A stretch of 64,000 nucleotides of DNA from Salmonirosea aquatica (lineage in GTDB: Bacteria; Bacteroidota; Bacteroidia; Cytophagales; Spirosomataceae): assembly GCF_009296315.1 (NCBI RefSeq), contig NZ_WHLY01000002.1:2294001-2358000 (forward strand). Direction: 5' to 3'. This document shows, piece by piece, positions 43,053-46,200 of the stretch. The notes under the pieces are model-generated. The model did no database searches. It was not told where the DNA came from and saw only the letters and a list, made by a program, of their open reading frames with translations. How positions within the stretch are numbered: the stretch's first letter is position 1; the number at the start of each line of letters is the position of its first letter. The translations under genes were made by a program, and so were the position numbers.

Positions 43053-43084
43053 TTCTGATTTATATAATAATTATAGTATCAAGA

Positions 43085-43117
43085 AGCCCGGCAATTTTAG
43101 ATTGCCGGGCTTTTTTG
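43085..43117 (+). terminator. Intrinsic terminator after tsf
   Basis: AGCCCGGCAAT (43085-43095) and ATTGCCGGGCT (43101-43111) form an 11-bp perfect stem followed by six more T. Confidence 0.92.
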
Positions 43118-43176
43118 TGTTATTTGAAATAATATATAGCAGAAAGTGTACTCAGGGCAAGTTACCTTCCCACCCT

Positions 43177-43809
43177 ATGGACGTCCTAACATTCCAGGAT
43201 AAAGCAATTGACGTATATAGTGACGAGGAACTCGTTCATCGATTCATCATTACCCAACGCAATTTGTTTTTTGAAGAACTGTACCGACGGTATGCCGATA
43301 AGGTATACCGAAAGTGCCTGTCGTTTGTGAAGGATTCTGCCCGGGCAGAGGATTTCACCCATGATATCTTCCTGAAATTGATTCTCAAGCTAGGTACCTA
43401 TAAGGAAGATGCCCGATTCTCAACCTGGCTGTATTCTATTACCTACAATTATTGTATGGATCAATTGCGGATCAACAAAAAACGTAGCGAGGTATACGCT
43501 GAGGAGGAACTGGAAATTCCGGACGATACGAATCTGGATATGGCCTTTGAGGAGCCTGATGTGGAGATACGGCGGTTGAATGAAGCCCTTAACTACCTGC
43601 ATACCGAAGAAAAAGGAATTCTGATGATGAAATACCAAGATGACCTCAGTATCCGGGAGATTGCACAGGCTTTCCGCATTACAGAAAGCGCGGTCAAGAT
43701 GCGCCTGCTGCGATCGCGGGAAAAACTCAGGACCAGGTACCTGGAAACCATCGTGTTCTGGGGCTTGCTGTTCGCCAAGCTACTGGAATTGTTACGATAC
43801 ACTAAATAG
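43177..43809 (+). CDS. ECF-type RNA polymerase sigma factor with a hydrophobic C-terminal tail
   Basis: I start at ATG 43177 (210 aa); the longer open frame would begin inside tsf. Region 2 covers about 28-95 (FEELYRRYADKVYRKCLSFV, EDFTHDIFLKLI, FSTWLYSITYNYCMDQLR). Region 4 is at about 130-190 (LSIREIAQAFRITESAVKMRLLRSREKLR). The linker is acidic. The last 20 residues (TIVFWGLLFAKLLELLRYTK) are hydrophobic and could touch the membrane or fold over region 4. No classic anti-sigma gene follows; instead a 60-codon ORF begins 5 bp after its stop codon. Confidence 0.9.
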   Translation: MDVLTFQDKAIDVYSDEELVHRFIITQRNLFFEELYRRYADKVYRKCLSFVKDSARAEDFTHDIFLKLILKLGTYKEDARFSTWLYSITYNYCMDQLRINKKRSEVYAEEELEIPDDTNLDMAFEEPDVEIRRLNEALNYLHTEEKGILMMKYQDDLSIREIAQAFRITESAVKMRLLRSREKLRTRYLETIVFWGLLFAKLLELLRYTK

Positions 43810-43814
43810 TCCCT

Positions 43815-43997
43815 GTGGAGAACGACGCATTCAAACAGCTGGATCCCGACCATCAGGCTCCTGCCTACCTGAAGGAAGCACTGGTGTCGGAGATTGATTT
43901 CATTCGTGATACGTTGCAGATCGTCACCCATTTTACAGAAGGCTTTTTAGGTGCGGCTATTAACAACCTTTCCCAACTTGTTGATTCAGAACCCTAG
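43815..43997 (+). CDS. Small acidic protein of unknown function after the sigma factor
   Basis: This 60-aa ORF starts with GTG and encodes an acidic protein (PDHQAPAYLKEALVSEIDFI, then RDTLQIVTHFTEGFLGAAIN). Its tight placement (5 bp after the sigma gene, 12 bp before the channel gene) and helical amphipathic composition suggest a real gene. It has no membrane segment or recognised domain. A role as partner or inhibitor of the sigma factor is a hypothesis from position only. Confidence 0.6.
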   Translation: MENDAFKQLDPDHQAPAYLKEALVSEIDFIRDTLQIVTHFTEGFLGAAINNLSQLVDSEP

Positions 43998-44009
43998 TCC
44001 CGATCCTGT

Positions 44010-44852
44010 ATGCAAACAATTCCTAACATTACTCAAATACTCATCAATACGTTCAACACGCTTATCAATCAATTCATTGATTTCGTGCCTCGTTTGATGG
44101 GCTGTCTTGTCATCCTCATCGTGGGGTACCTAGTAGCCAAGGGCGTATCGGTGTTAGTCGGCAATATACTGGGTCGGGTAGGTTTCGACCGGATTGGTGA
44201 GAAATTGAACGAAATCAGCATCATCAAGCAACTAAAGACAGAAATCAAACTCAGCGAGATCACCGCCAAAGTACTGTACTACTTCATACTGCTGGTGTTC
44301 TTGACGGCAGCGACCGAAACCCTGGGTGTAGATGCCATCACGAGCATGGTATTGTCCATCGTTAATTTTATTCCGCAGCTGATTGCCGCCGCCATTATGT
44401 TACAGGTAGGTATCATGCTGGCCGATGTTATCAAAAATACCGTCACGGGACTATGCAAATCGTTCAATATACCTTCGGCCAAGCTCATCGGCAACCTCGT
44501 ATTCGTGTTTTTTCTTATCATTACCTTCATCAGCGCTCTGGGCCAGATCGGCATCGAAACCACTTTGCTAATCTCCAGCTTCAACCTCATTCTTGGCGGC
44601 ATCGTAGCGGCTTTCGCTTTGGGCTATGGCATTGCTTCGCGCGATGTGCTGGCCAATATGATTTCGGCGATGTACAGCCGTAAAAAGTACAAGGTAGGCC
44701 AGACCGTAAAACTGGATGACGTCAAGGGAATCATTACCCAACTGGACAATGTGTCCGTGACGATTCAGAGCGCCGAGGCTACTATTGTGTTGCCTTTACA
44801 GCTTTTCCAGTCCAGGAAAGTGGAGATTTTTAACGAAACCATCCCTCAATAA
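44010..44852 (+). CDS. MscS-like mechanosensitive channel family protein
   Basis: The 280-aa protein has about four membrane helices (20-47, 85-107, 115-140, 156-178), with a further pore-like helix near 187-210 rich in Gly and Ala (LILGGIVAAFALGYGIASRDVLANMISAMYSRKKYKVGQ), as in the MscS pore helix and its amphipathic extension. A short beta-domain follows (VKLDDVKGIITQLDNVSVTI). The protein resembles the small CmpX/TM-helix-repeat group rather than E. coli MscS. It probably gates under membrane tension. It is followed by DUF3078 and mscL. Confidence 0.85.
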   Translation: MQTIPNITQILINTFNTLINQFIDFVPRLMGCLVILIVGYLVAKGVSVLVGNILGRVGFDRIGEKLNEISIIKQLKTEIKLSEITAKVLYYFILLVFLTAATETLGVDAITSMVLSIVNFIPQLIAAAIMLQVGIMLADVIKNTVTGLCKSFNIPSAKLIGNLVFVFFLIITFISALGQIGIETTLLISSFNLILGGIVAAFALGYGIASRDVLANMISAMYSRKKYKVGQTVKLDDVKGIITQLDNVSVTIQSAEATIVLPLQLFQSRKVEIFNETIPQ

Positions 44853-44864
44853 ATCCTATACAGC

Positions 44865-45770
44865 ATGAAATGGAGTTATATTTTCCTTGTCATAACCGCC
44901 ATTCTGAATTCATTTCCCGCTTTTTCCCAAGACGAGATACTCATTGATTCCGTACGCAACGAACTCGCCGTGGATACTTCCTGGAAGAAAAAAGTGGAAT
45001 TCGGTGCTAATTTGAATCAGGGCAGTTTTAGTTCCAATTGGACAGGGGGAGCCGTCAATTCCATCGCGGTAGGAGTTCATTTGAACGCAGTTCTAACGTA
45101 CGAAAAGGACCGCAACAGCTGGCGTAACGATTTTCAGGGTCAATACGGCATCGTGCGCAACAAGGGTCAGGAAAGTCGTAAAAGTGTGGACCGGCTGTTT
45201 TTCGATACCAAATACGGTCGCGAACTTACCGAGCATTGGAGCATGATCGCCAGCCTGAATTTCCTATCGCAGTTTGCGCCCGGCTATGATTACGACGAAT
45301 TACCCACCGGCGAATTAGTAAGAAGGAAAGTATCAGGCCTTTTCTCACCGGCCTACCTGACCGAAGCCGTGGGTATCGAGTACCAGCCAGCGGATTACTT
45401 TTTCCTGACATTTTCACCCGGTGCAATCCGGCAGACCATCGTATCTGATCTGAATCTTTACAAGACCTTTCCCAAAAATTACGGGGTACCTATCGGTCAG
45501 CGCGTGCGCACCGAGGTAGCTCTGATGCAACTCATAGCTAATTTTGATAAAAAAATCGCCAAGAATCTAAACCTTAAATTCCGCTATCAGTTGTTTGCTA
45601 ATTATAAGGATTTAGGAGCGGTGGATCATCGCCTGGACGCAAGTTTCACGGCCAAAATCAATAAATATTGGAATGTCAACTTGGGCGCAATCCTGATTTA
45701 TGATCAGGATCAGAGTCTGGACGTCCAGCTTGCCCAGTCGCTTTCAATCGGTTTTCTCTACACTTTCTGA
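44865..45770 (+). CDS. DUF3078 family outer-membrane protein
   Basis: The 301-aa product has a signal peptide (KWSYIFLVITAILNSFPAFSQ). The mature protein shows regular amphipathic strands and typical DUF3078 wording: WKKKVEFGANLNQGSFSSNW near 40-60, NSWRNDFQGQYGIVRNKGQE and YFFLTFSPGAIRQT, ending LSIGFLYTF with a C-terminal aromatic residue. DUF3078 proteins are beta-barrel-like and restricted mostly to Bacteroidota; the function is unknown. It starts 12 bp after the MscS-like gene, so an envelope-stress link is plausible. Confidence 0.85.
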   Translation: MKWSYIFLVITAILNSFPAFSQDEILIDSVRNELAVDTSWKKKVEFGANLNQGSFSSNWTGGAVNSIAVGVHLNAVLTYEKDRNSWRNDFQGQYGIVRNKGQESRKSVDRLFFDTKYGRELTEHWSMIASLNFLSQFAPGYDYDELPTGELVRRKVSGLFSPAYLTEAVGIEYQPADYFFLTFSPGAIRQTIVSDLNLYKTFPKNYGVPIGQRVRTEVALMQLIANFDKKIAKNLNLKFRYQLFANYKDLGAVDHRLDASFTAKINKYWNVNLGAILIYDQDQSLDVQLAQSLSIGFLYTF

Positions 45771-45815
45771 ATACATACACTTTTCATATTTCAATCAAAT
45801 CTAAACAGTACAACT

Positions 45816-46148
45816 ATGCTGAATGAATTCAAAATTTTCGTGGCCAAGGGAAACGTCCTCGATTTGGCGGTCGGTGTGATTATTGGCGCGGCGTTCGGGA
45901 AAATCACTACTTCGCTGGTGGAGGATATCCTGAATCCAATTCTGGGCCTGGTCATAGGCGGGGTCAATTTCGAAAATCTGAAAGTTGTATTAAAAGAAGC
46001 GGTAGGCGAAGAACCCGAGGTGGCGATTATGTATGGCAATTTCATTCAGACTATCATACAGTTCTTGCTGGTTGCGCTGGTAATCTTCTTTATCGTACGT
46101 TTTGCCAACCGCATCAAAGCCTCAGAAAGCGTAGAAGTGACGAAATAG
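45816..46148 (+). CDS. mscL: Large-conductance mechanosensitive channel MscL
   Basis: MscL is the emergency release valve for hypo-osmotic shock. The 110-aa protein is a short form (E. coli 136 aa), with the N-terminal amphipathic helix MLNEFKIFVAKGNVLDLAVG, the pore helix IIGAAFGKITTSLVEDILNP, and TM2 FIQTIIQFLLVALVIFFIVR (about 75-95). The periplasmic loop and cytoplasmic bundle are both trimmed. It lies 45 bp after DUF3078, so two tension-gated channels share this locus. Confidence 0.96.
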   Translation: MLNEFKIFVAKGNVLDLAVGVIIGAAFGKITTSLVEDILNPILGLVIGGVNFENLKVVLKEAVGEEPEVAIMYGNFIQTIIQFLLVALVIFFIVRFANRIKASESVEVTK

Positions 46149-46170: not shown

Positions 46171-46200
46171 AGGGGAAGGCAGGTACCTTCCCCTTTTTTT
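46171..46200 (+). terminator. Intrinsic terminator after mscL
   Basis: AGGGGAAGG (46171-46179) pairs with CCTTCCCCT (46186-46194), followed by T. A GGTACC lies in the loop and stem. Confidence 0.9.

Follow-up and report, generated by a model that had tools for sequence, protein, structure and literature searches.

Our analyses of a 64,000-nucleotide stretch of the Salmonirosea aquatica genome (hereafter the window) revealed a compact operon at positions 43177-46148 that encodes an extracytoplasmic function (ECF) sigma factor, a protein of 60 amino acids (aa), an MscS-like channel, a DUF3078 protein and the large-conductance mechanosensitive channel MscL. We propose, with a probability of roughly 45%, that it is an autoregulated envelope-tension operon whose core, the first three genes, is this phylum's counterpart of the Pseudomonas SigX–CfrX–CmpX module. 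The proposal draws, at the level of sequence, on the conservation of the operon, on the relationships of two of its products to SigX and CmpX, and on an ECF-type element ahead of the sigma gene; the sensing of tension, the control of the sigma factor by the small protein and an outer-membrane role of the DUF3078 protein we infer by analogy. A preliminary description of the window had pointed to a tight five-gene run ending at a terminator, and both parts were borne out: open reading frame (ORF) calls and Pfam matches place the five genes in one run with gaps of 5, 12, 12 and 45 base pairs (bp), in that order, and a terminator-like stem follows mscL. The features are as follows.

43161..43188, + strand: bipartite ECF-promoter-like element GTTACCTT-N14-GTCCTA (motif comparison)
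43177..43809, + strand: ECF sigma factor, SigX-like, 210 aa; start codon uncertain, aligned alternative ATT 43207
43738..43806, + strand: hydrophobic C-terminal tail of the sigma factor, residues 188-210
43815..43997, + strand: gene of the 60-aa protein, GTG start; small conserved family; CfrX-like position relative to cmpX
44010..44852, + strand: CmpX-like MscS-type channel, 280 aa; no C-terminal MscS domain found
44865..45770, + strand: DUF3078/DUF481 protein, 301 aa, signal-peptide-like start; probable outer-membrane barrel (inferred)
45816..46148, + strand: mscL, large-conductance mechanosensitive channel, 110 aa (Pfam, TIGR00220)
43081..43115, + strand: terminator-like stem upstream of the operon, after tsf (stem scan)
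46171..46194, + strand: terminator-like stem after mscL (stem scan)

Conservation of the operon

An orthologue of the channel is present in 29 of the 37 genomes of the window's family; among 22 other genomes of the order, channel matches were weak only, in 5. All 29 family loci keep the order sigma gene, small ORF, channel gene, and 25 carry the full set of five genes (mscL of L024 is cut by the fetched stretch; f- and g-numbers are our working labels for families and genera, L- and G-numbers those for loci and genomes). The exceptions are L008, which is without DUF3078; L028 and L029, which stop at contig ends; and L017, which is without DUF3078 and mscL, also across about 12 kb downstream (L276). 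A stable hairpin lies 3' of mscL in 20 of the 22 family loci having sequence to test. Conservation of gene order had been named as the check on the preliminary description, and the order held both within the family and in other families.

Variants of the arrangement were seen as well. Two tandem sigma genes of the same type stand ahead of the module in L232 and L233 (genus g18), a second channel, 49% identical and accompanied by a weak small-ORF match of its own, occurs in G028 (G028:C1:909714-910805), and two small ORFs lie side by side in G970 (C37:286120-286578).

Relationship to Pseudomonas SigX and CmpX

The sigma factor carries the Pfam domains Sigma70_r2 and r4_2 and, judged by profile comparison, is related to Pseudomonas SigX. 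In a comparison set of 80 loci fetched around oprF, the profiles of the window's family match both cmpX and sigX in 77; L069 is cut inside sigX, and L079 and L103 carry neither gene. For the family's sigma profile, sigX is the top ECF gene in five of five Pseudomonas-group genomes (109-113 bits, the next at most 63.8), and the SigX profile in turn gives the window's sigma factor the top rank among the 13 of that genome (76.7 bits, against 64.0); the two are reciprocal best matches, and their profiles align with E 1.2e-29 in hhalign. The channel matches MS_channel_1st_1 (PF05552) at 76 bits (cut-off 22), in two stretches, and its profile aligns with that of CmpX at E 1.5e-33, evidence by which it, too, is related to its Pseudomonas counterpart. 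A CmpX-type PF05552 channel gene and a SigX-like sigma gene hence share one cluster, and on these matches the two products belong to the SigX and CmpX families; we do not assign the operon to ECF102.

The pore helix and beta-domain region of the channel align with solved chains of Escherichia coli-type MscS (E to 1.3e-8). Unlike in classical MscS, however, the beta-domain match (PF00924, 18.2 bits) falls under its cut-off of 20.2, and the C-terminal MscS domain (PF21082) gave no match up to E 1.

Compared with the Pseudomonas module, the operon likewise joins a related ECF sigma factor and a related channel of the same length, with a small protein gene beside the channel gene and an outer-membrane type gene in the cluster. 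It differs from the Pseudomonas order cfrX-cmpX-sigX-oprF in that the sigma gene comes first and not after cmpX, in having DUF3078 in place of OprF with mscL added, in a 60-aa protein that is not recognisably CfrX, and, on the side of the sigma factor, in a hydrophobic tail and in showing no sign of a wide regulon. In Pseudomonadota at large, 36 of 398 genomes match the channel profile at 1e-20; the sigma gene adjoins the channel in 22 of 30 loci, CfrX is also strongly matched in 17 of these 22, and the sigma–channel pair together with a small ORF also occurs beyond Pseudomonas (L161-L164).

In the channel tree, sigma-linked channels form one group per phylum (25 rows, support 99/95; 13 rows, 97/92). 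The sigma tree took in 22 of the 46 Bacteroidota-side sigma factors, the 12 other ECF sigma factors of the window's genome and 11 ECF sigma factors of Pseudomonas-group genomes; it unites the linked sigma factors from the two phyla with support of 93/82, below the tool's starred level. The sigma tree in this way leans toward a single origin of the module and the channel tree does not, and one origin is not established because unlinked channel relatives sit nearer the Pseudomonas group.

The core and its additions

What belongs to the core of this system? The channel profile matches 128 of 392 genomes of the phylum at E 0.001, many over part of the profile only. Outside the family we took one locus from each of the 17 best-matching genomes (L037-L053), a sample that left out second matches in G095 and G234 and weaker long matches in G122 and G350. 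A sigma gene of the same type lies upstream of the channel in all 17. In 16 of them a single small ORF, 58-97 aa long, separates the two genes, L053 being ambiguous; the family's small-ORF profile recognises 13 of the 17 at E <0.01 and L043 at 0.01.

The neighbourhood downstream of the channel was examined in 16 of these loci and proved variable. DUF3078 follows in all four f26 loci and in the f28 locus (L264), which has a canonical three-domain MscS gene, complete with PF21082, between the CmpX-like gene and DUF3078. In L262 (f42) the channel gene is followed on the same strand by a bactofilin, a coiled-coil ORF, Porin_O_P and an OprB porin, and in L053 by a gene without a Pfam match; an opposite-strand gene follows in the other f42 locus and in seven of the eight f25 loci, and DUF2807 in the eighth. 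Since the unit in those seven f25 loci consists of the trio only, DUF3078 and mscL fall outside the core. By this comparison the core is sigma gene, small ORF and channel gene; proteins of outer-membrane type and a further tension channel recur as additions to it, the latter seen twice, as mscL in the window's family and as canonical MscS in L264. Shortened relatives of the channel also exist (L054-L062), with frames of 229-319 aa in which the match stops near model position 221-226.

These findings bear on the idea, put forward in the preliminary description, of an envelope-stress unit. Its general sense gains in likelihood from the kinship with SigX and CmpX, from the DUF3078 or porin genes that follow the channel in several lineages and from the recurring second tension channel; DUF3078 and mscL, for their part, lie outside the core. 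The kinship with SigX, the position of the small ORF and the promoter-like element are additions to that description.

A promoter-like element and the sigma gene

An element of the form GTTACYTT-N13/14-GTCHWA recurs upstream of the sigma gene. Of 16 held-out family loci, 5 have its strict form, compared with 0.00 in shuffled sequences, and none of the 6 held-out g31 loci has it; a looser form is present in 7 of 16 loci of other families, again against 0.00. The element was first chosen by eye, so that an early comparison with shuffles flatters it, and the looser form was set after the other families had been viewed and is biased for them, whereas the strict count is held out for the family. 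The window's genome has two strict matches, one of them at this operon, against five for the reversed control. As the element is found repeatedly in front of the sigma gene and is not enriched at other sites, the regulon may consist of this operon itself; the pattern would fit autoregulation with a very small regulon. Across 150 family genomes, 22 of 94 strict matches sit 604-720 bp from the small ORF.

Two further sites deserve mention in their own right. The other strict match in the window's genome (L204 1501-1528; G000:C2:1690277) overlaps, in our reading, the end of a thioredoxin-like ORF and lies near the start of another ORF, and the strict element with a similar spacer occurs in five g36 genomes (L206-L210), where no gene of the module lies within about 1.5 kb to either side.

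The codon aligned with ATT 43207 of the window is ATG in 10 of the 29 family sigma genes and ATA in L004; ATT and ATA may serve there as rare start codons. In some relatives the sole start codon lies directly after the second box.

In the family, each of the 29 sigma factors has a hydrophobic C-terminal tail of 20-25 residues, with a lysine (arginine in L005) placed 13 residues after a tyrosine. Measured as the best 18-residue mean hydrophobicity within the last 30 residues, the tail scores 0.91-1.28 in the family, 0.03-0.54 in 24 module sigma factors outside it and 0.29-0.38 in 33 Pseudomonas SigX proteins. We considered the tail as a unique feature, a view weakened by a control: it is not unique, because 2 of the 12 other ECF sigma factors of the window's genome (L245 and L246) have equally hydrophobic ends; in the same control L241, whose sequence is probably cut, gave 0.75. 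The tail may help to hold the family's sigma factors at the inner membrane.

The 60-aa protein

An alignment of 29 homologues in which Glu26 is invariant marks the 60-aa ORF as a real gene. Searched with its profile, 143 of 222 family genomes give a match at E <=0.1, and 132 remain after removal of nine weak g12 matches (393-aa frames) and two in g32. No fusion of sigma factor and small ORF was evident among the 143 matching genomes; a 353-aa frame with an internal stop was noted in G930. No Pfam or NCBIfam family matched the protein, and its family retrieved a single chain, at chance level, among solved structures.

A frame for CfrX could be read in all 77 Pseudomonas-group loci that carry cmpX and sigX. 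The small protein there is of similar size, with 78-87 aa compared with 60 here, and its gene likewise lies beside the channel gene. Homology of the 60-aa protein to CfrX is not claimed, because profile–profile comparisons were not significant; a second attempt with divergent Pseudomonadota small ORFs added, using shuffled decoys and hhalign, gave P 0.046, which we likewise do not put forward as homology.

A model of the operon and its alternatives

The comparison with P. aeruginosa suggests how such a unit could work. There, CfrX is described as a putative anti-sigma factor and has been proposed to form a mechanosensing complex together with CmpX and OprF (PMC8999054). SigX targets include both cfrX and cmpX, and the level of sigX mRNA increases upon cold and upon stiffening of the membrane (PMC7641640); deletion of cmpX lowers sigX transcription (PMC10965496), and 307 genes are reported for a sigX mutant (PMC3832394). 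By analogy, we propose that at rest the small protein would prevent the sigma factor from acting and would probably do so close to the channel at the inner membrane, where the family's hydrophobic tail may help to keep the sigma factor. A change in membrane tension or stiffness would act through the channel and free the sigma factor, which would then direct transcription chiefly of its own operon, from the element at 43161-43188, so that the levels of the MscS-like channel, MscL and the DUF3078 protein rise together.

One may take this further and consider the operon a private tension thermostat: a sigma factor tethered to the inner membrane by its own hydrophobic C-terminal helix with a central lysine, with the 60-aa protein and the CmpX-like channel as its gate, a regulon essentially confined to its own operon, and a closed loop through which membrane tension determines how many channels and outer-membrane proteins are made, with effectors swapped between lineages (porins, DUF3078, MscS or MscL) around an old core shared with Pseudomonas. 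In this full form we consider the idea doubtful.

Several observations weigh against an autoregulated counterpart of the Pseudomonas module. The strict element is missing from 11 of the 16 held-out family loci, and its 94 matches in the 150 family genomes compare with 97 for the reversed control; a wider regulon is not claimed, strict matches being no commoner than in that control, and weaker promoters are possible. The annotated ATG of the sigma gene at 43177 falls between the two boxes of the element and would therefore be off a transcript started there, and for this reason we grade the promoter role of 43161-43188 as probable only. The channel occurs without this sigma gene in 8 of the 30 Pseudomonadota loci, and no such sigma gene adjoins the shortened relatives L054-L062 in nine of nine cases. 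In the channel tree, 17 of 20 unlinked relatives fall on the Pseudomonas side, at a weak 89/76, and three share a 98/89 fork with the Pseudomonas group and L053; in the sigma tree, L053 stands outside the joined group and the very-long-branch ECF sigma factor L247 inside it. The small protein is not recognisable as CfrX. In P. aeruginosa, sigX is reported up in both low osmolarity and high sucrose (PMC7641640), and overexpression of cmpX leaves the expression of sigX and cfrX unchanged (PMC10965496).

The last of these results speaks for a different reading, in which the channels and the DUF3078 protein are outputs only, the CmpX-like channel takes no part in sensing, and the 60-aa protein acts as a small anti-sigma factor answering to another signal. 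The genes added downstream of the core (mscL, MscS, porins, DUF3078) do resemble effectors. However, the channel is the most constant partner, being the sole gene besides sigma gene and small ORF in seven of eight f25 loci, and deletion of cmpX did lower sigX transcription; we regard this explanation as possible, if on the whole unlikely. It is also conceivable that the 60-aa protein is a subunit or adaptor of the channel that does not bind the sigma factor, whose activity would be set by its own expression through autoregulation, a weak start codon and the membrane tail. The element before the sigma gene and the doubtful start codon would agree with such an arrangement, as would a protein unlike any Pfam or NCBIfam family or CfrX. 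Against it, the small gene stands between sigma gene and channel gene in all 29 family loci and in 16 of the 17 loci outside the family, and genes of anti-sigma factors usually adjoin the sigma gene, as the small gene does here, which leaves it improbable in our view. That the genes are conserved neighbours without functional coupling, an old cluster inherited behind tsf, we all but dismiss: tsf lies upstream in 16 of 29 family loci, so that part of the conservation is an inherited place, but the core order is kept in other families with different neighbours, the sigma–channel pair recurs in Pseudomonadota, and the hairpin after mscL is found in most of the family loci that could be tested.

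P. aeruginosa SigX is the single studied example of an ECF sigma factor under a mechanosensing complex, and even there CfrX and CmpX have only proposed roles. The envelope-tension operon proposed here would add another, distantly related branch. Its operon is compact, has a counterpart of three genes in other lineages, carries a second channel as an addition and shows a recognisable promoter-like element, so that the question whether a mechanosensitive channel serves as a sigma factor's receptor becomes testable. It is also a lead to an unnamed family of about 60-aa proteins. A flavobacterial transcriptome paper describes, in the excerpt available, ECF motifs and not this unit (PMC9723704). 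Judged by titles and the starts of abstracts, none of the papers found describes such an operon in this phylum, and queries pairing CfrX with Bacteroid-, or CmpX with Bacteroid- and mechanosensitive, found nothing in a search that left most subscription papers uncovered. A large reclassification of ECF sigma factors has reportedly been made; since it did not turn up in the search, a group covering these sigma factors may exist.

Downstream proteins and flanking features

The DUF3078 protein matches PF11276 at 87.9 bits (cut-off 25) and DUF481 at 37.2 (cut-off 21.1), and is probably an outer-membrane barrel. No solved chain matched its sequence up to E 10. Single-sequence structure models were of low confidence and not usable for this protein (mean predicted local distance difference test score 29.8) or for the sigma factor (40.1). 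The DUF3078 family is rarely mentioned in the literature searched, as far as its excerpts go, and its recurrent position behind the sigma–channel core offers a new lead to its role.

MscL is an ordinary member of its family by Pfam (PF01741, 125.4 bits, cut-off 27.4) and TIGR00220, unusual only in its place behind a SigX-like sigma gene. The scan for terminator-like stems returned 8 sites in the region against 5.9 in shuffles, a ratio that makes it weak by itself. The genes flanking the run we take to be tsf upstream and murD downstream.

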